DNA from: a virus
Direction: 5' to 3' (one strand)
DNA: 38,619 nucleotides
IMG/VR virus record: IMGVR_UViG_3300049020_000027
Coordinates: 1-38,619 of that record
The notes under the pieces are model-generated. The model ran no database searches and was not told the origin of the DNA. It worked only from the letters and a program-made list of their open reading frames with translations. The translations under genes and the position numbers were made by a program. Below, one piece after another: positions 48-38,619 of this stretch. Position 1 is the stretch's first letter; each line of letters opens with the position of its first letter.

Positions 48-584
48 GTGAAGCGTGACAGTGGGCGTGACGTGTCACGGTCAACGATGTCACGGGGCGT
101 GACACAAGAGCGTGACATCCGAAGCGTGACCATCGCGGCTTCCGCCGCTCTGGAGGACGAGCGCGAGACCGCGCTGGCTCGCGCGTTTCGGTTCTTCCGC
201 GACAACCCGGACGAGATGCTGACGCGCCCGGACATCCAGGTGAAGTTCGGCTGCGGCTACGAGCACGCCAAGCACATCGCCCGCCGGCTGATCCAGGAGG
301 GCGTGCCGCGTGCGCAGCTGCCTCGCAGCCCCAGGCCGTCGCAGGCCAAGGCCGTGCCAAAGCCGCCGTCCGTCTTCCCGGACAACCTGGAGCCCAAGCA
401 ACGCCGCGTCCTGCTGGCCTTCATCGAGACGCAGGGAACCGTCCGCGAAGCCGCTGCAGCCGCTGGCGTGGCCTTCCACACCGCCGAGACCTACCTGCGC
501 GATGCCAGGCGCAAGGCGGGCGTCAACACCACCGCGGCCCTGGTCGATCTGTACCGGGCTGCAACGCAGAGGAGCGCAGCATGA
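48..584 (+). CDS. DNA-binding protein with C-terminal LuxR/sigma-region-4-like HTH
   Basis: This 178-aa protein starts at GTG 48, with GGGAGG about 11 bases upstream inside a hairpin. Its first 30 residues are encoded by the CGTGACA repeats and carry several Arg-Asp pairs. Residues about 38-85 look like a helical wing-helix type domain. Residues about 113-172 resemble the HTH of LuxR/sigma region 4 and closely match the small protein at 1496-1717, with shared FP-NL-P--RR and KAGV--T--LV-L positions. It follows the helicase gene and the repeat cluster if the ends join. It could be an origin-binding protein or a late-gene regulator. The family assignment is moderate and the role is inferred. 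Confidence 0.75.
   Translation: MKRDSGRDVSRSTMSRGVTQERDIRSVTIAASAALEDERETALARAFRFFRDNPDEMLTRPDIQVKFGCGYEHAKHIARRLIQEGVPRAQLPRSPRPSQAKAVPKPPSVFPDNLEPKQRRVLLAFIETQGTVREAAAAAGVAFHTAETYLRDARRKAGVNTTAALVDLYRAATQRSAA
54..131 (+). repeat. CGTGAC(A) iteron cluster, left part
   Basis: CGTGACA or one-base variants occur at 54, 66 (CGTGACG), 98, 111 and 125 (CGTGACC) on the + strand. Inverted copies (TGTCACG) occur at 73 and 88. Seven copies in 78 bases is far above chance for a 7-mer. The cluster lies inside the 5' end of the gene at 48 and continues the cluster at the other end of the window. Confidence 0.8.
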
Positions 585-802
585 GCACCGTCCTGACCCG
601 CACCGATCCCGCGCGCCCGCGCGCGCTTTCCGAGGGCCGGTGCGCCGGCTGCATGGAGGGGCAGGGACGCGTCTGCGCGTGCCGTGGTGAGGCGAAGAGC
701 CGGCATCGCAGCTGGTGCATCAGCCAGGCGGAGTTCTGGCGGCTGTACTTGGCGCTGGTGGTGGGCGTGGTCGGGGCGCTGGTGTGGTGGGGGCTGTCGT
801 GA
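581..802 (+). CDS. Small cysteine-rich single-pass membrane protein
   Basis: This 73-aa protein starts in an ATGA overlap with the preceding gene and has GAGGAG upstream. Residues 20-34 contain four cysteines in a Cys-x2-Cys and Cys-x-Cys arrangement. Residues about 50-72 are a hydrophobic segment ending WWGLS, predicted to cross the membrane. No family is recognised. Its place in a coupled operon between an HTH gene and a resolvase gives no clear function. Confidence 0.65.
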   Translation: MSTVLTRTDPARPRALSEGRCAGCMEGQGRVCACRGEAKSRHRSWCISQAEFWRLYLALVVGVVGALVWWGLS

Positions 803-1284
803 TCCGGCTGACGCTCCCTTACCCGATCAGCGCGAACCGCTACTGGGCCTCGCGCGTGGCCAAGGTCAACGGCAAGCCCATGCCGCTCACCTACGTCACG
901 ACCGAGGCCAAGGACTACCGCAAGACCGTGGCCGGCCTGTGCTTCGCTGCCGGCATCTCGCGGCCCATCGCTGGCCGTGTCGCCGTCACGCTGCAGCTCT
1001 ACCCGCACCGGCCGCTGGACTGGCAGAAGCGCCAGCGCCAGCACGGCGCGGCGTGGGACGACACGGTGCAGTGCATCGACCTGACCAACGCCGAGAAGGT
1101 GCTGATGGACGCGCTCAACGGCCTGGCCTTCGAGGACGACAAGCGCGTGTTCCGCTACCAGGCCGAGCGCATGGAGCCCGACGAGCACGGCGCCCGGGTC
1201 GTCATCACCATCACGCCGCTGCAGACCAGCCAGCCCACGCAGGCCGCGCTGCTGCCAGAGGCCGAAGAGGAGGCCGCGTTTTGA
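799..1284 (+). CDS. rusA: RusA-family Holliday junction resolvase
   Basis: This 161-aa protein starts at GTG 799, overlapping the previous stop (GTGA). RusA hallmarks are visible: an N-terminal PYPISANRYW segment, then an acidic centre with Asp-Leu-Thr-Asn, Lys, DALNG and Glu-Asp-Asp. The family is a dimeric, metal-dependent endonuclease that cuts four-way DNA junctions. In phages it resolves recombination or replication intermediates before packaging. The length is a little above the E. coli protein (about 120 aa) because of a C-terminal tail rich in Glu and Ala. An upstream in-frame ATG at 715 is disfavoured because it would overlap the previous gene widely. Confidence 0.88.
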   Translation: MIRLTLPYPISANRYWASRVAKVNGKPMPLTYVTTEAKDYRKTVAGLCFAAGISRPIAGRVAVTLQLYPHRPLDWQKRQRQHGAAWDDTVQCIDLTNAEKVLMDALNGLAFEDDKRVFRYQAERMEPDEHGARVVITITPLQTSQPTQAALLPEAEEEAAF

Positions 1285-4461: not shown

Positions 4462-5607
4462 ATGTCGATGACGATTTCGGGGCCGCCGTGGAATGTGACC
4501 ATCCCGCCTGCGGTGTCAGGGGGTGGGAACAATGTGAAGCTCCCCAAGTGGCGCCGCGCGCTGGCCAAGGTCAGGGCAGGGACTGCTAACGCCAACCTGA
4601 TGGCACTCGGCGACAGCACGACTGCCGGCTCCTTTGCCACCGGCAACGGGTATGTCGCAAGCGCCCGGTCGATGAGCTACCCAACGCAGTTGGCCGCCCT
4701 GATGGCGACGGCGACGGGGCTGCCGATCAATCTGAACACCTTCGCGGGTTCCAACGCCGGCAGCTCAGACTTTCTGGCCTACGACCCCCGCTGGACATCT
4801 CTCGGCACGAACTGGACGGTAGGAGCGATCCCGAGTTTTGGCGGGTCACTGATCGGCAACAACAACGCTGGCAACTACACGACTGCCAAGTTTCAGACCA
4901 GCGGCATCACCGACACGGTCGACATCTGGTATCTCCAGAACACCAGCTACGGCACCTTCACTGTGTCTATCGACGGCGGGCAGTCCACCAGCGCCAACAT
5001 CGTTGCGGCCGGCGCGATCAGCATGCAGAAGGTGACCAAGACCTTCACGCGCGGCAGCAACCACGTCCTTGAGTTCAACAAGGTGGCTGACGGCAACGTC
5101 TTCATCGCTGGCTTCTGCGCCTATGACTCTCAGGTCAAGTCGGTGAACATCTTCAACGGCGGCTACCCTGGCAAGAAGGCCAGCGACTTCGTCGCAAACA
5201 CCAACGTGTGGGACCCGCTGCCGATGCTTGGCACGTTCGCGCCAGACCTGACGCTGTTGAACATCAACATCAACGATTGGATCGCCGGCACCGCAGCGGC
5301 GACGTTCACGTCTCAGATGCAGACCATCATCACGCAGGCCCAGTTGTCGGGCGACGTGCTGCTGCAGACCGGCATGCCGAGCAAGATCACCAGCGCCACG
5401 CAGGCGGCGCAGGATGCCATCACCGTGGCGACGCGGCTGCTTGCTCAGCCGCTCAACATCCCTGTGGTCGATGTGTCGTCGGCCTGGTGCGACTACACCA
5501 CGGCGGTGGCCAGCGGCTACTTCTTGCCGGCCAATGACGTTGTCCACCCGGGCGCCGCAGGCTACGCCAACGCGGCCCTGCTGATCTCGCAGGTCATCAG
5601 CGCCTGA
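4462..5607 (+). CDS. SGNH/GDSL-type hydrolase in the head module
   Basis: This 381-aa protein starts at ATG 4462 with GGAG six bases upstream. SGNH blocks are visible: GDS at residues 50-52 (nucleophile Ser52), Asn-Asp at 271-272 and Asp359-x-x-His362 as the likely catalytic Asp/His. A beta-rich insert (about residues 110-230) separates block I from the rest and may be a carbohydrate-binding domain. Phage members of this clan act as esterases or deacetylases on surface polysaccharide. Location between portal and scaffold is unusual for a host-polysaccharide enzyme. No signal peptide is seen, so a virion-borne role is inferred. Confidence 0.82.
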   Translation: MSMTISGPPWNVTIPPAVSGGGNNVKLPKWRRALAKVRAGTANANLMALGDSTTAGSFATGNGYVASARSMSYPTQLAALMATATGLPINLNTFAGSNAGSSDFLAYDPRWTSLGTNWTVGAIPSFGGSLIGNNNAGNYTTAKFQTSGITDTVDIWYLQNTSYGTFTVSIDGGQSTSANIVAAGAISMQKVTKTFTRGSNHVLEFNKVADGNVFIAGFCAYDSQVKSVNIFNGGYPGKKASDFVANTNVWDPLPMLGTFAPDLTLLNININDWIAGTAAATFTSQMQTIITQAQLSGDVLLQTGMPSKITSATQAAQDAITVATRLLAQPLNIPVVDVSSAWCDYTTAVASGYFLPANDVVHPGAAGYANAALLISQVISA

Positions 5608-19502: not shown

Positions 19503-21156
19503 GAAGGTTTCGTTTCCGGCCTTCTTTTTGATGTGGGCCGAGGTCCAGCGGTGGGACGTGCCCGACATCCACTGGATTGCCGTGCACTGGCTTGAGAACC
19601 GCGGCCGCCTGGCCGTGCTGCGCTGCTTCCGCGGCTTCGGGAAGTCCACGCTCCTGGCCGTCTACAACGCCTGGCGCTACTACCGAAACCCGGCGTTCCG
19701 CATCCTGCACCAAGGCGACCAGGACAAGACGGCCTACAAGACCAGCCGTGACACGCTGGCCGTGCTGCAGCGCCACCCGCTCACTGCCGATGCCTACCGC
19801 TACGGCATCCGCGGCAACAAGGACTCGTTCTGGTGGGGGCCAGGCTCCACCGATGAGCGCAACCCAAGCATGCAGGCGGCCGGCATCCTCACCAGCATCA
19901 CGAGTTCGCGCTGCGACGAGGTGCAGAACGACGACGTGGAGGTGCCGAAGAACATCACCAACCCAGACAACCGCGAAAAGATGCGAGGCCGCCTCGGTGA
20001 GCAGGTGCACTGCATGGTGCCTGGCGCGCCCATCCTCTACATCGGCACACCGCACACGCACGATTCTCTCTACGACGAGATGGAAGCCATGGATGCCGAT
20101 TGCCTGACCATCAAAATGTTCGATCACGAGTTCCGCGTCGAGCTGGCCGACAAGCTGAGCTATGCGCTGCCGTTCGCGCCCGAGTTCGTGCTGGTCGGCA
20201 TCGGCAAGACGTCTAAGGCGCTGCGGCCCGGCAAGGACTACACGCTGCGCGGGGCCACGATCACCTTCAAGAAGGAGCCGATGGCGCTGGTCGACTTCTA
20301 CAGCGGCAGTTCGTGGCCCGAGCGCTTCACGCTCGACGAGATGGAGTTCCGCCGGCGCAAAACCAAGACCATCAACGAATGGGACAGCCAATACCAGCTG
20401 CACAGCAAGCCGGTGCACGACCTGCGACTGGACCCGGACCGCATGCCGGCATACGACGTGGAGCCGGTCTGGAAGCGCGGCAACGGACAGCTGACCATGT
20501 GGCTGGGCCAGGCCCGCATCGTCAGCGCCGCCGTGCGCTGGGATCCTTCGAGCGGCAAGCTCAAGAGCGACGTTTCGGCGGTGGCCGTGGTGTTCCAGGA
20601 CGACACCGGCCGGCGCTACCTGCACCGCGTGCTGGGGCTGATGGGTGATGTCGTCGAGTTCGCGGACGACGGCAAGACGGTGATCGGCGGCCAGGTTCAT
20701 CAGCTCTGCAACCTGGTGGAGGAGTTGCGGCTGCCTCGCGTCACCATCGAGACCAACGGCATCGGCGGGTTCTCGCCGGCAACGCTCAAGGGCGCGCTGA
20801 AGCAGCGCCGGCTGGTGTGCGGCGTGGCCGAGCAGCACAGCACCACGCTGAAGAACAAGCGCATCCTGGAAAGCCTGGAGCCGCTGCTGTTGACCGCCGA
20901 CCAATTGTGGGCCCACGTCAGCGTGCTGGACGGTCCGCTCTACACGCAGATGCGCGACTGGAACCCCGCCGTCAAGGACCAGCCCGACGACTACCTGGAC
21001 GCCGCGGCCGGCGCCTGCGCCGAGCAGCCCGAACGCGTGATGCGCACCATCGCGCCGGAAGACCACGCCGGGATTCCGGCCCCTACCGGGCAAGACAGTT
21101 GGCGCCCATCGAGTGGCGTGCACATGCTGGAGCTGGAGACGGGCATCGTCGACTGA
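19480..21156 (+). CDS. Terminase large subunit (T7 gp19-like packaging ATPase/nuclease)
   Basis: This 558-aa protein probably starts at GTG 19480 with AAGGG upstream. The Walker A-like RGFGKST is at residues 51-57, and the acidic Walker B region with Asp-Asp-Val-Glu at 151-154 is as in T7 gp19. The C-terminal nuclease domain has Asp355, Glu424 and Asp503/Asp504/Asp507 as candidate metal ligands. It drives DNA into the procapsid and cuts the concatemer. The length fits the T7 type (586 aa). The third copy of the 34-bp motif lies within its last 30 codons. Confidence 0.93.
   Translation: MSQSASPEKVSFPAFFLMWAEVQRWDVPDIHWIAVHWLENRGRLAVLRCFRGFGKSTLLAVYNAWRYYRNPAFRILHQGDQDKTAYKTSRDTLAVLQRHPLTADAYRYGIRGNKDSFWWGPGSTDERNPSMQAAGILTSITSSRCDEVQNDDVEVPKNITNPDNREKMRGRLGEQVHCMVPGAPILYIGTPHTHDSLYDEMEAMDADCLTIKMFDHEFRVELADKLSYALPFAPEFVLVGIGKTSKALRPGKDYTLRGATITFKKEPMALVDFYSGSSWPERFTLDEMEFRRRKTKTINEWDSQYQLHSKPVHDLRLDPDRMPAYDVEPVWKRGNGQLTMWLGQARIVSAAVRWDPSSGKLKSDVSAVAVVFQDDTGRRYLHRVLGLMGDVVEFADDGKTVIGGQVHQLCNLVEELRLPRVTIETNGIGGFSPATLKGALKQRRLVCGVAEQHSTTLKNKRILESLEPLLLTADQLWAHVSVLDGPLYTQMRDWNPAVKDQPDDYLDAAAGACAEQPERVMRTIAPEDHAGIPAPTGQDSWRPSSGVHMLELETGIVD
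21067..21100 (+). repeat. 34-bp dispersed motif, copy 3 (inside the terminase gene)
   Basis: GCCGGGATTCCGGCC at 21067-21081 is followed after 11 bases by AGACA(G)TTG. It overlaps the terminase reading frame near its 3' end, about 120 bases before the tail fibre gene. The exact 15-bp match and 11-base spacing equal the two non-coding copies, so the constraint is unlikely to come from the protein. Confidence 0.7.
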
Positions 21157-21189: not shown

Positions 21190-23091
21190 ATGGCAGTCCC
21201 AGAGCAGACCCCCCTGAATTCGCACTTGGCCAGCGGCGCCTCGGGCGTGTTCAGCTATGACTTCCAGATCGCGGCCGAGACCGACCTGGCCGTGACAGCG
21301 GACGGTGATCTGCTGACGTTGAACGTCGACTACACGGTGGCAGGCGTCGGCGTTGAAACTGGCGGCACCATCACCGTCACGCCCACGCCGTCGGCCGGCG
21401 TTGTCGTCACCGTCTACCGCGACACCCAGCTGAAGCGCGACGACGATTTCCAGACTGCCGGAGACCTGCCGGCCGCGCAGGTGAATCTGGAACTGGACCG
21501 CCTGTGGCGCGCGCTGCAGGAGATCTTCAGCGGTGGCAAGGGTGCTCCTACGGCCATTCGCGTGCCGCAGGGCGAGACGGTGCCGGCGCTGCCGAAGGCT
21601 GCAGACAGGGCGTCTCGGGTGCTGGCGTTTGACGCTTCTGGCAATCCCATCGTTATCCCAGGGGTGGACAGCGGCAGCGCCGCCGCCCTTGCCATCGACC
21701 TGGCCAACACCGCCAGCGCCACGAAGGGCGACTACCTCATGGGTGTCAGGCGCACTCAGACCGGTGCCGTCGCCACCACACAGCACGCGGTCAACGAGGG
21801 CCGCTGGTTCGACATGAAGGCCGACGGCGGCTGCGCTGCCGATGGTGTGACGACAGGTGATGTCGCCAAGATCCAGGCCATCATCAACGCGACGCCAGGC
21901 GTCTACTGGTTCCCCGGCGGCACCTGGCTGTGGGAATCGAAGCTGCAGCTGCCGAACGACGTGGTGCTGATCTTCTCGCCCGCGGCGACCATCAAGCCCG
22001 CAAGCAACGGCCTGACCATCTTCGGCGAGAAGGACTACGGCGGCGGCACGAAGACCTGCTACCGCAGCCAGATCATCGGCGCTCGCGTGGACGGCACCGG
22101 CAAGACGGGCACCGTCTGGGGCGACTTCACGAACATGCGTCAGGCGGGTGCCGGCATCTACAACTCCCTGGCCATCGAATGTGGCCTGCCGATCTTCCGA
22201 TTCGGCTGCTACGCCACCATGGTGAAGGACTTCACTGCGTTCGGCGGCGTGCTGTCGCCCATGACCTTCACAGCCTCGGCCAGCAAGTGCGTCGTGGAGA
22301 ACCCGATCATCGACAACCAAGTCGCCGGCACGGGGAGCGGGACGGGGACCGCGATCCAGGTCAACAGCACCACGTCCGAGACCATCGGCGTGCAGATCCT
22401 GGGCGGCTACATCCAGGGCTTCGACATCGGCATCGAGGACAAGGCCTACAACACGACCATCGAGCGCGCGTACTTCGAGCACTGCAACGTCACCGACGTC
22501 TACTTCAACGGCGCCCGCGGCAGCCATGTCGCCAGGACGGACCACAACGCCGGCATCGGCGCCTGTGGCATCAAGGCGCGCAACAGCGACGCCATCAGCG
22601 TGTTCAAGCCTCAGATGGGCAGCGGGAATCGCACTGGCCTGCTGGACTTCGACGGCACGAACACCAACTGCACGGGCGAAGTCGACTCGTCAAACGCGAG
22701 CTGGAACACGCCGCTGGGCGTGACGACCGGCATTCTGCTGAGCCCGTACTCGGCGAACTACACCGTCACGGACGCCAGCGCGGCCGCGCTAACCTTCACG
22801 CAGAACACCCAGGCGGTCTACAGCCGCGCCGGCAACACCGTCACGGTGTGCTTCGACATCACCTACCCCGTGACAGCCAGCGGCGCCAATGCCTCGATCA
22901 ACCTCCCCGTAGCGCCGAAGGCCGGCACGACCGTGACGGACTCGGCTGGCTTCACCGACTACGGCTCGGTGCTGCTGTTCAACGGCTCGGGCTCGACGTT
23001 CGGGGTGTACGCCTCATCTGGCGGCGCGCTAACCAATGCCAACCTCTCTGGCAAGCGCATCGCGGGCTCGATCACCTACATCACGCGATGA
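21190..23091 (+). CDS. Tail fibre/tailspike with T7-type N-terminal anchor
   Basis: This 633-aa protein starts at ATG 21190. Residues 1-110 match the T7 gp17 N-terminal anchor pattern (ASGVFSYDFQIAAETDLAV, then VYRDTQLKRDDDFQTAGDLPAAQVNLELDRL). Residues about 200-490 are repetitive beta-strand segments with a start resembling the pectate-lyase-type spike fold (DGGCAADGVTTGDVAKIQAII). The C-terminal 120 residues are a beta-rich receptor-binding domain. It probably binds, and may degrade, a host surface polysaccharide. The active site cannot be located. Confidence 0.85.
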   Translation: MAVPEQTPLNSHLASGASGVFSYDFQIAAETDLAVTADGDLLTLNVDYTVAGVGVETGGTITVTPTPSAGVVVTVYRDTQLKRDDDFQTAGDLPAAQVNLELDRLWRALQEIFSGGKGAPTAIRVPQGETVPALPKAADRASRVLAFDASGNPIVIPGVDSGSAAALAIDLANTASATKGDYLMGVRRTQTGAVATTQHAVNEGRWFDMKADGGCAADGVTTGDVAKIQAIINATPGVYWFPGGTWLWESKLQLPNDVVLIFSPAATIKPASNGLTIFGEKDYGGGTKTCYRSQIIGARVDGTGKTGTVWGDFTNMRQAGAGIYNSLAIECGLPIFRFGCYATMVKDFTAFGGVLSPMTFTASASKCVVENPIIDNQVAGTGSGTGTAIQVNSTTSETIGVQILGGYIQGFDIGIEDKAYNTTIERAYFEHCNVTDVYFNGARGSHVARTDHNAGIGACGIKARNSDAISVFKPQMGSGNRTGLLDFDGTNTNCTGEVDSSNASWNTPLGVTTGILLSPYSANYTVTDASAAALTFTQNTQAVYSRAGNTVTVCFDITYPVTASGANASINLPVAPKAGTTVTDSAGFTDYGSVLLFNGSGSTFGVYASSGGALTNANLSGKRIAGSITYITR

Positions 23092-24986: not shown

Positions 24987-25793
24987 CTACTTGCACAACA
25001 GCGGCGCCACCTTCAGCGCCACGGCCGGCGCCAGCACATCGCGCACGGTCATGGTGTACCAAGCCTGGGTGCCGTGCGTGCCGTCGAGCAGGTAGGGAGC
25101 CAGGGACGGCAGAGCCAGGGCGTAGGAGTTCAGGTCTGCCACGCTCTGGCCGTGCTTCGCAGCCACGTCCTTCATGGCCTGGATGTGGTCGGGCATGAAG
25201 CGGACGGCCTGGGTGTAGAAGATCACCGCGCCGCCGTGCTTGGCGAACACCTCCAGATAGCCACGGTACGCCTCCAGGCTGTACGCGCTGAAGTCGTTGA
25301 TGCCGTGGTTGAAGACGGACACGTCGGCCGGCGGGATCTGCGCCAGCGGGGTCTTGTAGTTGTCCGTTCCCTCGATGGCCGACTTCGCCGTGAAGCCGCC
25401 AGCGTGATCCAGCACCACGACCTTGGCCGCGCCGAACTTGGCGTCCATCTCGGCCTGCAGCAGCACGGCGGGAGGCTTTGGCACCAGAGGCGCCGCGCCG
25501 CCCTCGATGTTCACGCCCACCATCGTGGAGTCGCCGAACAGGCGGACGGTGACGAAGGGCCGGCAGGCAGGCTCGGCCGAGGGGGAGGAGGAGCCGCCAC
25601 CGCCGCAGGCGGTGAGCGCTGCACAAGCGACCAGCGCAACGCGTTTACTTGCCCTCGCTAAGTGATTGATTCGAAACGCGTCGATTCGCCTTATCTGGCG
25701 AAGGTAAACTGCCCCTAAAACGCGCCATAAACCATTGATGCCAAACAGAAATCCAGCGATTTTGTTGGTCTGCACCGCCAACATCTGTTGCAT
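24987..25793 (-). CDS. SGNH/GDSL hydrolase lipoprotein, likely lysogenic-conversion gene
   Basis: This 268-aa frame starts at the complement of 25791-25793 with GGGAGA seven bases upstream. SGNH blocks: GDS at residues 87-89, GIND at 164-167 and DGTH at 237-240, so Ser89 and Asp237/His240 form the likely triad. A lipobox LTAC ends at Cys63, but about 45 residues precede the basic start of that signal, including another hydrophobic stretch. A lipoprotein signal is normally at the very N-terminus, so the natural start may differ. It converges on Rz1 (one base between) and lies next to the likely attP. Surface polysaccharide modification of the lysogen is a plausible role. Confidence 0.75.
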   Translation of the reverse strand: MQQMLAVQTNKIAGFLFGINGLWRVLGAVYLRQIRRIDAFRINHLARASKRVALVACAALTACGGGGSSSPSAEPACRPFVTVRLFGDSTMVGVNIEGGAAPLVPKPPAVLLQAEMDAKFGAAKVVVLDHAGGFTAKSAIEGTDNYKTPLAQIPPADVSVFNHGINDFSAYSLEAYRGYLEVFAKHGGAVIFYTQAVRFMPDHIQAMKDVAAKHGQSVADLNSYALALPSLAPYLLDGTHGTQAWYTMTVRDVLAPAVALKVAPLLCK

Positions 25794-25840
25794 GACGTTC
25801 TCCCTATGAAGATTGCAGGTTGTTCACTTCGTGTTCACTT
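25640..25840. other. Putative phage attachment region (attP)
   Basis: A less GC-rich stretch lies at the 3' side of integrase 1, where lambda-type phages carry attP. It contains a perfect hairpin TTCGCC-TTATCT-GGCGAA (25685-25702), which is a candidate core. It also has two direct 9-bp repeats TGTTCACTT at 25821 and 25832 (11-bp period), candidate arm sites; one overlaps the last integrase codons. The region also encodes the N-terminus of the SGNH lipoprotein frame. No host sequence is available to fix the core. Confidence 0.45.
25821..25840. repeat. Tandem 9-bp direct repeat beside integrase 1
   Basis: TGTTCACTT occurs at 25821-25829 and 25832-25840, separated by CG, so the copies lie on the same face of the helix. 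Position at the integrase 3' end suits arm-type integrase or excisionase binding sites. The assignment is inference. Confidence 0.6.
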
Positions 25841-26936
25841 GCCGTTTATTTGAGTCTAGCGGCTGCACCGTCACGCGGATGGCTTCTGACCCCCGCGGAT
25901 CGGCGTAGAGAGCCGCTGTTTTCTCATCCTGGTGGCCTAGAAGTTCCTTCGTATCGACGTTGCCCTGGGCCTTGTAGAGGCGCTTCGAAAGGCTGCGAAT
26001 CTCGTGGAACGTGGGTGCGTTCTCCGGCGGCAGTTCGGCGAGCTGGTAGGCCTTCGCAAAGGCTTTGGTGATGGTGTCCACAAAGACCGGAGAGCCTGCT
26101 GGCGCGTTGCCGAAGTTGCGGACGTGGTGGACGATGTAGCGCGACGCCACACCGCTGGTGTTGCGCAGCACCTCGCGCAGCACGAGCCCGGCCACGACAA
26201 GCTCCAGGTCCAGCGGGATTGCAATGCGAACGCCGGTCTTGCCTCGCTGAAACTCCAGGCAGTCGCCGACGATGTTGGAGCGCATCAGGCCCGAGAGGGT
26301 GTCCCGGTCGGAGCCCGTCACGAGTGCCAAGTCCATCGCCTTGCCGATCCAGCCGTTCACCTCGTCGGCCTTTGCGCGCACGGCGCGGAAGTCGTCCAGC
26401 GACAGCCGGCGGCGCTTGACCGTCACGGCCGGCGTGCGCGTGGCCTCGGCCGGGTTCGACGTCATCCACCCAAGCTGCATGCCGCGCTGGCACATGGTCA
26501 CCAGTCGCGAGCGCACGGCCAGCGCCAGGCGCGCCTTTTTTTCGACCGCCTCGATCGGCTCGACCAGCTCGGCGCAGTGCTGGGTGCGCAAGTCCGCCGC
26601 CTGCATGCTGCCGATGGCGGCCACGATGCGCTTGTCGAGCGACTTGTGCGAGCGCCGCGTGTTCGCCGCGGCGGCGGGCGGGATCTTGCCGAGCAGCGCC
26701 TCGACGGTCTGGCCGTCTTCAGCTGGCGCTGGGGCCATCTTGTCGAGCAGGCTCGGCGCCATCGACTCGACCTTCAGGTTCGCCGCCGCAGCCTGGGCCT
26801 TTGCGCCCTGCAGCGACACGCGCCCGATGGGGATGGTTCGGCCGTCCGGGTGCCGCCAGACGAAGTAGCCCTCACGCGGCTCGTAGAGCCCGCGCGGCCA
26901 GCCTCTGCGGTTCGCGTTGCGCCTTGCTGCGTTCAT
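25824..26936 (-). CDS. int: Tyrosine integrase 1 (lambda Int family)
   Basis: This 370-aa protein starts at the complement of 26934-26936 in an ATGA overlap with the excisionase gene. An N-terminal arm-binding-type domain (GLYEPREGYFVWRHPDGRTIPIG) is like lambda Int. Catalytic residues: Lys233, His311-x-x-Arg314, His335 and Tyr344. The first Arg box reads TGSDRDTL, so the likely catalytic Arg211 is one position later than in lambda (TGQR). The length is close to lambda Int (356 aa). Its position beside the excisionase gene and the putative attP makes it the likely integrase of this phage. Confidence 0.92.
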   Translation of the reverse strand: MNAARRNANRRGWPRGLYEPREGYFVWRHPDGRTIPIGRVSLQGAKAQAAAANLKVESMAPSLLDKMAPAPAEDGQTVEALLGKIPPAAAANTRRSHKSLDKRIVAAIGSMQAADLRTQHCAELVEPIEAVEKKARLALAVRSRLVTMCQRGMQLGWMTSNPAEATRTPAVTVKRRRLSLDDFRAVRAKADEVNGWIGKAMDLALVTGSDRDTLSGLMRSNIVGDCLEFQRGKTGVRIAIPLDLELVVAGLVLREVLRNTSGVASRYIVHHVRNFGNAPAGSPVFVDTITKAFAKAYQLAELPPENAPTFHEIRSLSKRLYKAQGNVDTKELLGHQDEKTAALYADPRGSEAIRVTVQPLDSNKRQVNTK

Positions 26937-27139
26937 GCTGCCAGGAACTCTGCCATGGCACCGCGCGGCGTCGCGTCGGTCATGCGTTGCGCGTCGGGCA
27001 GCACGTAGTAGCCCTTCCCTACCTTCTCGGGTGCGGGAACGATCTCCCCTGCCCTCACCCACTGGCGCAGCGTCCAGGCGGACGGCGGCGGGTCGTAGTG
27101 CAGAGCGGCCCAGTCGGCGAGTGGGATCTTCTTGCTCAT
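26933..27139 (-). CDS. xis: Excisionase (Xis-like)
   Basis: This 68-aa protein starts at the complement of 27137-27139 with GGGAAGAG upstream. Residues 18-48 (PPSAWTLRQWVRAGEIVP followed by GKGYYV) follow the lambda Xis winged-helix pattern. Xis bends attR and directs integrase to excision. It is cotranscribed with and translationally coupled to integrase 1. Confidence 0.85.
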   Translation of the reverse strand: MSKKIPLADWAALHYDPPPSAWTLRQWVRAGEIVPAPEKVGKGYYVLPDAQRMTDATPRGAMAEFLAA

Positions 27140-27161
27140 GGTCTCTTCCCAAGGATGGTTT

Positions 27162-27905: not shown

Positions 27906-28589
27906 TCAGTCCAGGAGGGCCGCTTGCTGCGGCGCTTCTGGGGCGGGGGCGAAAAGCTGGACCTGCTGCTGGGCCTGCTCGATGCGCCGGCAGGCAATGT
28001 CGAAGTAGGACTGCTCGCGTTCGATGCCGATGAACGCGCGGCCAAGCTGAACGCAAGCCACGCCGGTGCTGCCGCTGCCCATGAACGGGTCCAGCACGGT
28101 TGCGGCCGGGCCAGCATGCTGGATGGCCCAAGCCATCACCGCCACTGGCTTTTGCGTCGGGTGCTCCTTGGTCCTGTAGTCGCCGCGCGCCAGCGGGTCA
28201 TAGGTCAGCACCCGCGCGTTACCGTCCCACGAGCACCAGGCGAACTCGCACTCGGCGAAGTCCCGCGCCTTGAAGCCGGCGCCCTTGTCCCACACCAGGA
28301 AGTTGCGCGATGGCGGCAGCGGGAAGTAGTTGCCGCCGAACAGGATTACGCGCGCCGACTTTGAGCAAACCAGGGCCAACAGCTCATCAGGCGGGGGGGC
28401 GTCATCCCAGCGCAGGTCGGAGCTGGCCTCGATCTTCAGCCGGCCGTACTTCCCGGTGCCGGCGCTGGCGCCGATGCCGTACGGCGGGTCAGTGATGACG
28501 GCGTCGACGTTGGACAGCGTCGGCAGCACCTCCATGCAATCGCCACGGTAGAGAGTGGCGCTGCCAATGACGACTTTTTCGTAGCTCAT
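27906..28589 (-). CDS. DNA adenine/cytosine-N4 methyltransferase, beta class
   Basis: This 227-aa protein starts at the complement of 28587-28589. Motif IV DPPY (residues 34-37) precedes motif I DPFMGSGSTG (167-176), the beta-class order, with VVIGSATLYRGDCMEVL at the start. DPPY allows N6-adenine or N4-cytosine specificity. No restriction endonuclease lies nearby, so it is an orphan enzyme probably used against host restriction. The length is typical of short phage methyltransferases. Confidence 0.9.
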   Translation of the reverse strand: MSYEKVVIGSATLYRGDCMEVLPTLSNVDAVITDPPYGIGASAGTGKYGRLKIEASSDLRWDDAPPPDELLALVCSKSARVILFGGNYFPLPPSRNFLVWDKGAGFKARDFAECEFAWCSWDGNARVLTYDPLARGDYRTKEHPTQKPVAVMAWAIQHAGPAATVLDPFMGSGSTGVACVQLGRAFIGIEREQSYFDIACRRIEQAQQQVQLFAPAPEAPQQAALLD

Positions 28590-28612
28590 GGATGAGTTCG
28601 AAGGGTGGGAGG

Positions 28613-28807
28613 TCAGGCCGCCAGCGCGGTGTCGATGATCCGGACGACAGCAGCGGGCAGCGGCTCGATGCCGTCGCGGCGACACTCGAAGTCGAAGCGC
28701 TGCAGGCGCTCCAGCGCCGTGCGCAGCACATCGTTCTGATCGGCTAGGCGCTCGATTTCTGCTTCGCGCCTGCGAAGCAGTTGCAGCGTTTCTTGGTAGT
28801 CGGTCAT
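28613..28807 (-). CDS. Small coiled-coil protein, unknown
   Basis: This 64-aa protein starts at the complement of 28805-28807. Residues 5-40 form a strongly charged heptad-like helix (LLRRREAEIERLADQNDVLRTALERLQ), predicted coiled coil. The start has no clear purine-rich ribosome site; a C-rich stretch follows the upstream stop instead. No family is recognised. Confidence 0.55.
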   Translation of the reverse strand: MTDYQETLQLLRRREAEIERLADQNDVLRTALERLQRFDFECRRDGIEPLPAAVVRIIDTALAA

Positions 28808-28824
28808 CACAGTCGGTGGGAGGT

Positions 28825-29013
28825 TCAGTCGCGAGGCGCAGGCATCGGGCATTCGTGCCGCTTTGCGAACCGCCTGGCGCCCGCCTCGTCGGTGTCTCGC
28901 GAGAAGGTGCGAGGGAAGCGCAGCCGGGACGACGGGTACTTGAAGTCAACGACCCACGACAGGCGATAGTGGTCAATGTCGATCTGCCTGATCCGGTGCG
29001 AATAGCTTTTCAT
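28825..29013 (-). CDS. Small basic hypothetical protein
   Basis: This 62-aa protein starts at the complement of 29011-29013. It is rich in Arg, Tyr and Ser (DHYRLSWVVDFKYPSSRLRF) and may be a small beta-rich nucleic-acid-associated protein. The family is not recognised. It lies between the methyltransferase block and other small early genes. Confidence 0.5.
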   Translation of the reverse strand: MKSYSHRIRQIDIDHYRLSWVVDFKYPSSRLRFPRTFSRDTDEAGARRFAKRHECPMPAPRD

Positions 29014-30499: not shown

Positions 30500-31510
30500 T
30501 CAGGCCGCGGCCGCCTGCTGGGCGTCGTTGGCGGCAGGCGCGCGCTGCGCGTCCACCGTCTTCCATTCGGCCTCGGTCAGCCCGCGGTCGTCGAGGTAGA
30601 CCTTCGTCATCTCGGCGTGCTTGTGGCCCAGCAGCGTCTGCACGGTGACAGGCTCCATGCCCTCGGCGATGTACGTGCGGGCCGACAGGCTGCGAACCTC
30701 GTGCAGGCTGGGCCACTCGAAGCGCTGGTAGGCGTCGGGCCCGCACACGGCGACGATGTGCTGTCGGAAGCGCGCCGACAGCGACGACATCTCGATGGGC
30801 TGGCCGTTGGCCTGGCGCAGGAGGTTGTCGCCCGGCTTGCCGATGGTCCTGCACAGCTCGATGACCTCGCCAAGCGTCATCCCGGTGGCTTCCAGGCGGA
30901 GCGACAGCGGGATCGCGACGCGGGAGCCCACCGGCTTGCCGGCCTTCTTCTGCTGTTCGACCCTCAGATGCCCGTCGACAACGTCGGAGAACCACATGTT
31001 GGCCAGGTCGGCGCGGCGCTGGCCAGTGTGCAGCGCCAGCAGCAGCATGGCGTGCACCCAGCGCTGCGGGCTGGCGCGCGACAGGTCGAGCATCGCCTGC
31101 AGCGTGTCGAGCGTCAGGCGCTTGCGCAGGCCTGGCGACTTCGGCGGCTTGACGTGCGCGGCTGGGTTCGTCTCCGCGGCGCCGTTGTTGATGGCCTCGG
31201 TGTAGACGTCACGCAGCTCGCCCAGCACGCGGCGCGCGGTGTGCGGCGTGAACTGCTTGAGCTTGCTGGCGATGTCGACGGGGCGGATGCCGCGCAAGGG
31301 CATCTCTCCCCACATGGCCTCGATGTGTTTCACCGACGCCGCGCGGTTGCGCACGGTCTGGATGTTGTAGCCGCGCTCGGCGACCGCCTTGCGGTAGGTC
31401 ACCAGCCAGTCGGCCAGCGTCGGGCCGGCGTCGGCCACGGGCGCGGCCGGCCCTTGCGAGAGCTGGCGCAGTGCCTCCTTCAGCAGCTGCTTGAGCTTTT
31501 TCTTCTTCAC
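30500..31510 (-). CDS. Tyrosine integrase 2 (lambda Int family)
   Basis: This 336-aa protein starts at GTG (complement of 31508-31510), with GAGGT nine bases upstream. The complete catalytic set is visible: Arg165 (TGQRRADL), Lys189/Lys192, His270-x-x-Arg273, His296 and Tyr305. It begins with a Lys-rich helix instead of the arm-binding start of lambda Int. No excisionase or tRNA lies nearby. It sits inside the early operon, about 4 kb from integrase 1. It could act on another site, resolve genome multimers or be an acquired recombinase. Confidence 0.9.
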   Translation of the reverse strand: MKKKKLKQLLKEALRQLSQGPAAPVADAGPTLADWLVTYRKAVAERGYNIQTVRNRAASVKHIEAMWGEMPLRGIRPVDIASKLKQFTPHTARRVLGELRDVYTEAINNGAAETNPAAHVKPPKSPGLRKRLTLDTLQAMLDLSRASPQRWVHAMLLLALHTGQRRADLANMWFSDVVDGHLRVEQQKKAGKPVGSRVAIPLSLRLEATGMTLGEVIELCRTIGKPGDNLLRQANGQPIEMSSLSARFRQHIVAVCGPDAYQRFEWPSLHEVRSLSARTYIAEGMEPVTVQTLLGHKHAEMTKVYLDDRGLTEAEWKTVDAQRAPAANDAQQAAAA

Positions 31511-37004: not shown

Positions 37005-38522
37005 ATGGGTTCGCAACTGATGTCGGTTCTGTTCCCCACTGATGCGGAAGCCGACGACGCTTCCAAGCTCCGCAACCCTCCGCACTCCAACGAGGCGGAA
37101 CAAAGCCTGCTTGGGAGCTTGCTGATCGACAACCATGCGCTGTCCAAGGTGGCGGATATCGTTTCTCAGGGCGACTTCTTCGCCAGCTATCACCGCCTGA
37201 TCTTTGGCGCCATCACGGCCCTCATCACAGCCGGGAAGGACGCGGACGTGGTGACGGTGTTCGACGCGCTTGGCGAGGCCAACGTGGCGGCCACCGGTGG
37301 GCTGAAGTATCTGAACGCGCTGGCGCAGTCTGTGCCAAGCGCCGCAAACATCGTGCGCTACGCGGAGATCGTCGCTGAGCGGGCAACGCTCCGTTCGATC
37401 ATCGCCACGCTCGATCAGGCCACGTCGCGCGCCTTCAATGGCGACCCCGCCGCCACGATCCTGGACGATGCCAAGGTCACGCTGGGTCGCATCTCCGACG
37501 CCCGCAAGCTCGGCAGCACGCGGATCCCGATGCTCGGCCTGGACGAGCTGCGCAAGCAGGCTCACTCGGTGCCGTGGCTCATCAAGGGCGTGATGCCGGC
37601 CAGCAGCATCGGCATGATGTTCGGCGCCTCGGGCACGTTCAAGAGCTTCATCGCGCTCGACGCGGGGCTGCACATCGCCCACGGACTCCCGTGGATGGGG
37701 CACCGGACGAGGCAAGGCGGCGTGCTTTACCTGGCCGCCGAGGGCGGCATGGGCTTGTGGCCCCGCATTGCGGCCTGGCACCGCGCCAGGCGGCTGGAAT
37801 GGACCAAGACGCCGCTGAAGGTTGTCCCGCTGTCCCTGGACCTGTCCGAGGACGCCTGGAAGGTCGTGGAGGCCGCCCAGGTGCAGGGTTTCAATCCGTC
37901 TCTGGTGGTCGTGGACACGCTGAGCCAGACCTTCGGCGGCGAGGAGAACGTCGCCAACGACGTCTCAGCCTACTTCCGCGAAATCGGCGCCCGGTTCCGC
38001 GCGCTGTGGGGCTGCGCGGTGCTGGTCGTGCATCACAGCGGCCACGCAGCCACCGAGCGCCCCCGCGGCTCCAGCGCCATGCTGGCCAACGTGGACTTCA
38101 TGTACGGCGTGTTCCGCGACGAGAAGGAAATGATGGCCACCGTCACCTGCCTGAAGCAGAAGGACGGCGAGCGCTTCAACGACGCGATGTTCCGCGTCAG
38201 CGTGCACCAACTGGGCACAGATGACGACGGCGACCCCATCACCAGCCTCGTCGCACGCCACATGAGCAGCGTGGAGGAGGTGCAGGACGCCATGGAGGCC
38301 GAGTCCAAGGCCGGCCGCGGCGGCAACAACCACCTGCTGCTGACGCTGCTGCAGTCGGGCATGAAGGAGTCGGAGTTGCGGACGCTGTTCTACGCCGAGT
38401 GCGACGCCAGCTCGGCCGATGGCCGTCGCCAGGCCTACCACCGGGCGCGCAAATGGGCCGAGACGACCGGCCTGATCGAGATCGCCCAGGGCGTCGTCAT
38501 CACCCTGAAAGCCGGAGGCTGA
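37005..38522 (+). CDS. Replicative helicase with DnaB-type N-terminal domain and RepA-like (AAA_25) motor
   Basis: This 505-aa protein starts at ATG 37005 (alternative ATG 37020); ribosome site weak. Residues about 27-130 (SNEAEQSLLGSLLIDNHAL, DFFASYHRLIFGAI, GGLKYLNALA) are the DnaB N-terminal domain. Residues about 190-410 are a RecA-like motor with Walker A GASGTFKS (207-214), Walker B VVVDT (301-305) and HHSGH (343-347), as in RepA-type AAA_25 helicases rather than the usual DnaB motor. Residues about 440-500 look like a winged helix. It unwinds DNA at the origin, probably the adjacent repeat cluster. No primase domain is seen. Confidence 0.88.
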   Translation: MGSQLMSVLFPTDAEADDASKLRNPPHSNEAEQSLLGSLLIDNHALSKVADIVSQGDFFASYHRLIFGAITALITAGKDADVVTVFDALGEANVAATGGLKYLNALAQSVPSAANIVRYAEIVAERATLRSIIATLDQATSRAFNGDPAATILDDAKVTLGRISDARKLGSTRIPMLGLDELRKQAHSVPWLIKGVMPASSIGMMFGASGTFKSFIALDAGLHIAHGLPWMGHRTRQGGVLYLAAEGGMGLWPRIAAWHRARRLEWTKTPLKVVPLSLDLSEDAWKVVEAAQVQGFNPSLVVVDTLSQTFGGEENVANDVSAYFREIGARFRALWGCAVLVVHHSGHAATERPRGSSAMLANVDFMYGVFRDEKEMMATVTCLKQKDGERFNDAMFRVSVHQLGTDDDGDPITSLVARHMSSVEEVQDAMEAESKAGRGGNNHLLLTLLQSGMKESELRTLFYAECDASSADGRRQAYHRARKWAETTGLIEIAQGVVITLKAGG

Positions 38523-38523
38523 C

Positions 38524-38612
38524 CGTGACATCAAAAACCGCAAACGTGACATCGGAGCGTGACATTTCGGCTTGGCGCGACGCCGGGCGTGACAGCCGTG
38601 ACATGCGTGACA
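38524..38612 (+). repeat. CGTGACA iteron cluster, right part
   Basis: Perfect CGTGACA occurs at 38524, 38545, 38558, 38588, 38597 and 38606, six copies in 89 bases with the last three spaced 9 bp. It starts two bases after the helicase stop and would join the seven-copy cluster at the window start if the ends are continuous. This is the strongest origin candidate in the window. Confidence 0.85.
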
Positions 38613-38619
38613 TGGGGGG
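38525..38619 (+). CDS. Partial small ORF made of the iterons, running off the end
   Basis: A frame opens at GTG 38525, two bases after the helicase stop, and has no stop before the window end. It encodes repeated Arg-Asp pairs (WRDAGRDSRDMRDMG). If the last and first bases are joined, the frame continues to TAA at 26-28, giving 40 residues, and its stop lies in the hairpin loop before the next gene. It may be a real leader peptide or simply reflect the repeat period. Confidence 0.35.
   Translation, partial: MTSKTANVTSERDISAWRDAGRDSRDMRDMG

Follow-up and report, generated by a model that had tools for sequence, protein, structure and literature searches.

A phage DnaB/RepA-type helicase that probably reads the iterons of its own replication origin

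A cluster of short CGTGACA-type repeats straddles both ends of a 38,619-base virus contig (the window, by which we mean this whole stretch of DNA), and the window thus opens inside the cluster. The locus raises two questions, namely what the repeats are for and which protein reads them. An earlier note on this DNA proposed a phage replication origin bound by a helix–turn–helix (HTH) protein encoded just behind the join. A head–tail connector, a T7-like terminase match, two integrase-like genes (25824–27152 and 30500–31510, both on the minus strand) and an exonuclease VIII suggest that this phage is a temperate podovirus. A DNA methyltransferase-like gene (27906–28976, minus strand) and two GDSL lipase/acylhydrolase matches were also seen, one at 4462–5607 (plus strand) that resembles a tail protein too and one at 24987–25793 (minus strand) that lies below the Pfam cut-off. 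Positions 1–25000 of the window had no near DNA match in 50,697 phage records.

The array runs from 38524 across the window ends to 131 and holds 11 perfect units and two one-base variants, that is 13 units in 227 bp, which confirms the count of thirteen given earlier. Six perfect plus-strand units lie at 38524–38612. The first (38524–38530) starts one base past the helicase stop codon (38520–38522) and the second (38545–38551) follows 21 bp after it; the others are at 38558–38564, 38588–38594, 38597–38603 and 38606–38612. Seven more lie at 54–131: a perfect unit (54–60, plus strand), the variant CGTGACG (66–72, plus strand), two inverted perfect units (73–79 and 88–94, minus strand), two perfect plus-strand units (98–104 and 111–117) and the variant CGTGACC (125–131, plus strand). 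Outside the array there are four isolated perfect copies, at 19747, 21291, 22869 and 32240, so that the copies near 21291 and 32240 are indeed unclustered, as had been stated. Over the whole window 15 perfect copies were observed against a mean of 6.77 and a largest count of 13 in 100 shuffles. In the circularised window, 11 perfect copies fall within 227 bp, whereas none of 200 dinucleotide shuffles had more than two in a stretch of that length. The proposed count of 7-mer frequencies gave the same picture, the densest 7-mers being the CGTGACA unit and its overlapping shifts and the next having 4 copies per 227 bp. A cluster of direct repeats above chance is what an iteron-type origin shows, and a candidate AT-rich melting stretch is present as well. 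The 40-mer at 38528–38567, an A-rich stretch in the first spacers, has 45% GC in a contig of 68% GC, and only 66 of the 38,619 window 40-mers are lower. GC skew was dropped as an origin locator; it did not turn clearly at the array and is confounded by gene strand.

The gene immediately upstream encodes a helicase of 500 aa (37020–38522, plus strand, as are its parts). A DnaB-like N-terminal domain (residues 20–120, 37077–37379; PF00772, 1.1e-29) is followed by an AAA_25 motor resembling that of RSF1010 RepA (residues 175–343, 37542–38048; PF13481, 4e-35; PDB chain 1g8y, 2.2e-5). At the C-terminus AF2 predicts a winged-helix domain (residues about 434–495, 38319–38504), in which residues 466–483 (38415–38468) would form the recognition helix. 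The whole helicase was modelled by AlphaFold with a mean pLDDT of 87 and a pTM of 0.63, and the tail modelled alone (AF2; pLDDT 85, pTM 0.74) had three helices and a two-stranded wing. No Pfam model matched the tail at E 0.01, and a fold search with the winged helix returned only generic winged-helix PDB matches (best Foldseek E-value 0.13). The PDB sequence matches of the helicase are DnaB and the RepA chain 1g8y, and the 50 matches listed in the whole-fold search are DnaB. The protein nevertheless departs from the layout of a DnaB replicative helicase, in which a DnaB-type motor scores best in Pfam and stands at the protein end; here, the motor matches AAA_25 and the winged helix comes after it. 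A DUF927 or D5/Primase_Cterm motor is absent, as Pfam gives the DnaB N-terminal domain and AAA_25 only (E up to 0.01). In the proteins examined, the common motor and tail are fused to different N-termini: a DnaB N-domain in the window and L031, Prim-Pol with PriCT_2 in L003, L099, L121, L126 and L182, parts with no clear match in L125, L137 and L138, and a RepB_primase match below the cut-off in L145. This N-terminal part may be an exchangeable module, which calls in the primase of the host in some proteins and supplies one in others.

Relatives were sought with the helicase and with helicase alignments, to which one Vibrio phage region and one genome set were added. The 211 loci with a motor match, window included, gave 130 distinct, untruncated C-termini. 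A main set of 77 of these (the window and 76 relatives) has four or more units in the 700 bp that follow the helicase gene, an enrichment score of at least 8 and a motor score of at least 240. In 69 of the 77 the first unit begins no more than 60 bp from the helicase stop codon, and iterons that come straight after the helicase gene are the arrangement of SaPI Rep and Cch-type systems. Motor identities go down to 35% (median 54%). The number of exact units per array runs from 4 to 19, with a median of 8. The predominant unit is CGGGACA in 37 phages, CGTGACA in 19, CCGGACA in eight, TGGGACA in five and CGGCACA in three, and AGGGACA, TGTGACA, GGTGACA, GGGGACA and AGTAACG were seen once each. Position 3 is uniform within an array. 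T-type arrays, apart from the AGTAACG one, have 204 NSTGACA units and none of the form NSGGACA, and GG-type arrays contain 497 NSGGACA units versus four NSTGACA. Arrays thus switch as wholes at this position; positions 1 and 2 are mixed within some arrays (e.g. L036, L064, L102 and L120).

The spacing is also regular. Units 1 and 2 share a strand in 68 arrays, of which 34 have a first interval of 21 bp, nine one of 22 bp and eight one of 12 bp, so that 43 of the 68 fall at 21–22 bp; over all same-strand neighbours the intervals peak at 8–9, 12–13 and 21 bp. The consensus of the first spacer, taken from the 20 printed arrays with a 21-bp first interval, opens with an A-run. Arrays behind a like helicase in 76 distinct relatives, their regular spacing and the A-rich first spacer of the 21-bp arrays support the proposal of an origin at this place, and the array very probably serves this phage as a replication origin of the iteron type. 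Many arrays carry a GC hairpin in their middle. Alternating CG tracts of at least 8 bp occur within 350 bp in 44 of 76 arrays, against 94 of 1,520 shuffles; such tracts (8–13 bp) were seen mid-array, often with a GC hairpin, for example in L001, L037 and L075. Five arrays, the window's included, have a double G-run. The CG tract, the GC hairpin and the double G-run may represent a non-B-DNA element that aids opening.

Which protein reads the repeats is indicated by the helicase itself. In the recognition helix, residues 467, 470, 471, 474 and 475 covary with repeat positions 1–4, and residue 471 predicts repeat position 3 in all 77 distinct helicases with an array. Gln471, encoded in the window at 38430–38432 (plus strand), goes with T at position 3 (22/22), Lys or Arg at this residue with GG at positions 3–4 (52/52), and Met or Val with GC at positions 3–4 (3/3). 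Residue 467 follows position 4 in the same manner: Asp, Glu or Ala accompanies G in 73 of 73, His accompanies C in three of three, and Asn accompanies A in the single case. The coupling of residue 470 to position 2 is looser. Lys or Arg is found with G (69) and Ala, Gln or Ser with C (6); the exceptions are L142 and L173, where Arg470 stands with C. The triple Arg470–Lys471–Tyr474 is present in five of the six helicases whose repeats have T at position 1, and never occurs with another base. The mutual information between residue 471 and position 3 equals the full entropy, 0.89 bits. In a column scan of the last 370 residues, with columns of more than 30% gaps excluded and the N-terminal domain outside its range, the z for position 3 was 27.1 at residue 471 versus 10.8 at the next column, that of Arg470, which belongs to the recognition helix too. 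When only one row per 80% cluster was kept, there were 18 Q/T pairs, 39 pairs that were neither Q nor T, and no discordant one. Because residue 471 and repeat position 3 switch together, the helicase most likely binds its own origin.

Could this coupling be a by-product of shared ancestry, with no recognition behind it? Related phages do share both helicase type and repeat, as such a reading would have it. However, on a tree built on the motor domain, with the tail excluded, the two traits changed repeatedly. The careful tree method gave 14 base changes and 14 changes at residue 471, with nine of nine supported independent pairs in agreement (sign test p 0.004), and the quick method gave 13 and 13 changes and six of six supported pairs (p 0.031). 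For residue 470 and position 2, the tree showed four and six changes and two supported pairs, a non-significant result. A switch can also be seen among near neighbours. The motors of the window, L001 and L004 are 90–92% identical (127 motor residues were compared for L004); the window and L001 have Gln471 and CGTGACA, and L004 has Lys471 and CGGGACA. Further, the signal is focused on one residue of the recognition helix, and among the last 370 residues no column outside the winged helix comes near residue 471 in z. The pairings themselves match common protein–DNA contact preferences, with Gln opposite A:T and Lys or Arg opposite G:C, and His or Asn in place of Asp or Glu with other bases fits these preferences as well. 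Ancestry without recognition is hence barely credible. Only slightly less remote is the candidate named in the earlier note, the HTH protein (48–584, plus strand), which would bind the repeats and initiate as lambda O does. The 5′ part of its frame crosses the right half of the array, it has a weak HTH_28 match (0.0022, below the cut-off), and some relatives (L003, seen by eye, and the Vibrio phage record) have other HTH-like genes after the array, which are unrelated to it at E 1e-3. Against this binder, a tblastn search (E 1e-3) of the 71 relatives in which the downstream DNA reaches 1.5 kb or more found the HTH protein after the array in one only, as a 37-residue match (L099). Both L001 and L002 have an array but lack the protein behind it (the 61-residue match of L001 lies upstream, and only 1.1 kb is available downstream), and in L036 the corresponding frame soon meets a stop codon. 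No protein match to it was found in the 50,697 phage records. What covaries with the repeat is the winged helix of the helicase, and we consider the HTH protein an unlikely binder. The accompanying comparison with lambda, in which the iterons would lie inside the initiator gene, does not carry over either, as the array sits after the helicase stop codon and the HTH frame merely crosses half of it. Ori-lambda does resemble the present locus in being a phage iteron origin beside replication genes, but its iterons lie inside O, and O is no helicase.

The remaining doubts concern what the binding is for. Covariation argues for binding only, and GC hairpins stand within many arrays; the helicase might then hold the array mainly for transcription control of the downstream genes or of itself rather than for replication. 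This we regard as unlikely, since the binding domain belongs to a replicative-type motor and the array lies 3′ of the helicase gene, not 5′. Moreover, the array persists while the downstream genes that were followed vary: the HTH protein is there in one of 71 relatives, and the RusA-like resolvase (715–1284, plus strand; PF05866) in 12 of 71. SaPI Rep and Cch2 share the layout at an origin or putative origin (PMC7581432). The array might alternatively be a packaging, genome-end or partition site, with contigs ending where the physical DNA ends. The window and L028 do end in or beside a G-run or hairpin, the contig of L064 ends in a G-run, and the window has a T7-like terminase match. However, in 75 of the 76 relatives the contig continues for at least 700 bp past the helicase gene, array included, G-runs and hairpins are hard to sequence, and the repeat covaries with the helicase, all of which makes a packaging or end site very improbable. 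The earlier assumption that the two window ends are joined was borne out. They belong together because L035, L036, L050 and L077 carry the matching stretch unbroken, with repeats, double G-run, a GC-rich purine/pyrimidine hairpin element and further repeats in uninterrupted order, and the RusA-like gene after the array serves as a synteny marker across the join. At the join, the G-run of the right window end (38614–38619) continues into a second one, GGGTAGGGGGGGG (1–13), the exact number of Gs being uncertain; the mid-array hairpin CTCCCCC-GTAA-GGGGGAG follows at 18–35 (all plus strand). The window breaks in the G-run, and L028, whose HTH protein is 99% identical to that of the window, breaks at the neighbouring hairpin. 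Such breaks look like a sequencing or assembly difficulty and not like a genome end.

Returning to the reading of the array as an origin addressed by the helicase, we consider it likely, from sequence comparison, that this is an iteron origin of theta replication in a temperate phage and that the helicase of the upstream gene binds the iterons through its winged helix, with no separate origin-binding protein. What the comparison shows is an array at a conserved location, the domains from which the helicase is built, and a helix and a repeat that vary together; that the helicase binds directly, melts the DNA, recruits a primase and starts replication is what we infer. The helicase would be expressed from the gene just before the array. 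Its C-terminal winged helix would bind the iterons and so place a hexameric DnaB/RepA-type motor at the origin, with residues 467, 470, 471 and 474 presumably reading repeat positions 4, 2, 3 and 1 in the major groove. Gathered as a ring, or two, on the array, the bound helicase could open the A-rich spacers and start the forks. The DnaB N-terminal domain would recruit the host DnaG primase, and some relatives would use the Prim-Pol primase that they have there instead.

DnaB-type helicases usually require a loader and a separate initiator. On balance, we favour a wider reading in which the window belongs to a phage family whose DnaB/RepA-type (RecA-fold) helicase works without a loader or separate origin binder, its own winged helix reading the iterons. 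The natural code (residue 467 with position 4, 471 with 3, 470 with 2, and 470/474 with 1) would have arisen by repeated concerted switches of array and helix, and might keep the origins of co-infecting relatives apart. If true, a helicase of this type with the ability to find its own origin would make up a minimal initiation system of one protein. The coupling of one residue to one base would allow origins to be predicted from helicase sequences in metagenomic phages, natural variants of the Q471 and K471 type offer ready pairs for binding tests, and the case shows a whole array switching together with its reader.

Several known systems are built along similar lines. The helicase can be likened to P4 alpha, an SF3 helicase, but it has a DnaB/RepA-type motor; P4 alpha has a Toprim primase, while here DnaB-N or Prim-Pol N-termini sit on a RepA-like motor. 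In P4 alpha, one protein binds the origin repeats by a winged helix, unwinds and primes (PMC4234260). SaPI Rep and SCCmec Cch2 are likewise helicases with a C-terminal DNA-binding domain, a feature shared here by the predicted winged helix, and their origin, a putative one in SCCmec, consists of short iterons placed immediately after the helicase gene (PMC7581432). Their motors are of the DUF927 or D5/Primase_Cterm kind, in contrast to the DnaB N-terminus and AAA_25/RepA-like RecA-fold motor of the window. With its different motor, the window helicase would work like a SaPI Rep without being a member of that family. RSF1010 RepA has a motor related to that of the window helicase (1g8y), and both have iteron origins (PMC4234260, PMC8965321); RSF1010, however, uses a separate iteron binder, RepC (PMC4234260), whereas the window helicase would carry its binder as a fused domain. 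The relatives that are Prim-Pol and PriCT_2 fusions recall pRN1 ORF904, a primase-helicase with a C-terminal winged helix and an origin downstream of its gene. That protein has an SF3 motor and a stem-loop origin without iterons (PMC4234260). A literature search, to which subscription journals were mostly out of reach, found no paper on this helicase with its repeats among the matches listed.

The motor and C-terminus of the helicase matched 1,046 phage records, all below 60% identity, 30 of which cover 80% or more of the query at a single place, and 20 plasmid records, again all below 60%. The helicase of Vibrio phage 1.076.O has Lys in the helix and three TCGGACA units within 700 bp 3′, too few to be counted. 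Among 399 genomes of one order 13 matched, the only close one being the centre genome, which contains L031, and the other 12 being distant; the C-terminal domain alone matched three of 398 genomes of the phylum of the centre genome, namely the centre genome and two distant ones. Rubrivivax bins suggest Burkholderiales as the host order.

A second set (loci L243–L503) was mostly found through T- or GG-type repeat patterns. It therefore tests the pairing and not the presence of an array, and other units could hardly appear in it. Of its 17 new C-termini, 13 have the helix signature and all 13 obey the code, three with Gln and CGTGACA and ten with Lys or Arg and GGGACA. The exception, L356, is a distantly related fragment that matches the motor weakly and has a different helix, with Lys at the aligned place and a CGTGACA array. 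As for the remainder, L322 has no array, and L351 and L500 have other tails. The 53 C-termini left out of the main set include L161, with a motor score below 160. In the DNA examined, 44 of the 52 motor relatives outside the main set had no comparable array. Three others match the code: in L103 and L146 Lys or Arg goes with a weak GGGACA array, and in L232 Arg goes with a CGGGACA array that lies about 0.6 kb farther along. L078 and the distant bacterial loci L151, L152, L154 and L155 have other or few repeats. L180 and L181 have the helix signature ARKAFTR and no array in the DNA examined. Seven contigs, six of them with another tail, were searched whole for close GTGACA and GGGACA pairs only. 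L181 had none in its entire 6.8 kb despite the signature, which speaks against a fixed association of the tail with an array. Five other-tail contigs of 35–38 kb were also free of such pairs, and in L219 (other tail, 30 kb) two GGGACA pairs were found at a distance of 201 bp. In L036 and L138, taken as controls, there was one cluster each, adjoining the helicase.

Scans from the DNA side returned 101 stretches and at least 120 stretches. Among 159 repeat stretches (79 and 80), 39 had a match to the motor profile (L351 and L500 weakly), two had the C-terminal domain only, and 118, of which 79 have at least five units, lacked both the motor and the C-terminal domain in the DNA examined. The repeat alone is thus not diagnostic. 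Several of the 118 resemble unrelated repetitive DNA, and some adjoin other replication proteins (L333, L485 and L387). L333 (4409–7102, minus strand) encodes a DUF927 helicase with a CHC2 zinc finger and a Cch-type HTH, followed by eight CGTGACA units, and is a SaPI-Rep-like initiator with the repeat of the window. D5-like proteins adjoin similar arrays in L485 and L387; DUF927- and D5-like proteins beside such arrays agree with a general helicase-plus-iterons plan. In L448, L453, L457, L460, L461, L465, L472, L476 and L488, gene ends adjoin CGGGACA arrays. The proteins of this group have about 670 aa if complete, with no Pfam match above the cut-off in L461, and are possibly another self-addressing initiator. 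The distant bacterial AAA_25 proteins of L152, L154 and L155 have short repeats 3′ of their genes (CCGCACA, TGGCACA and TCGGGAA), and because such genes also precede short repeats, the helicase-plus-repeat plan may be wider than the phages described here.
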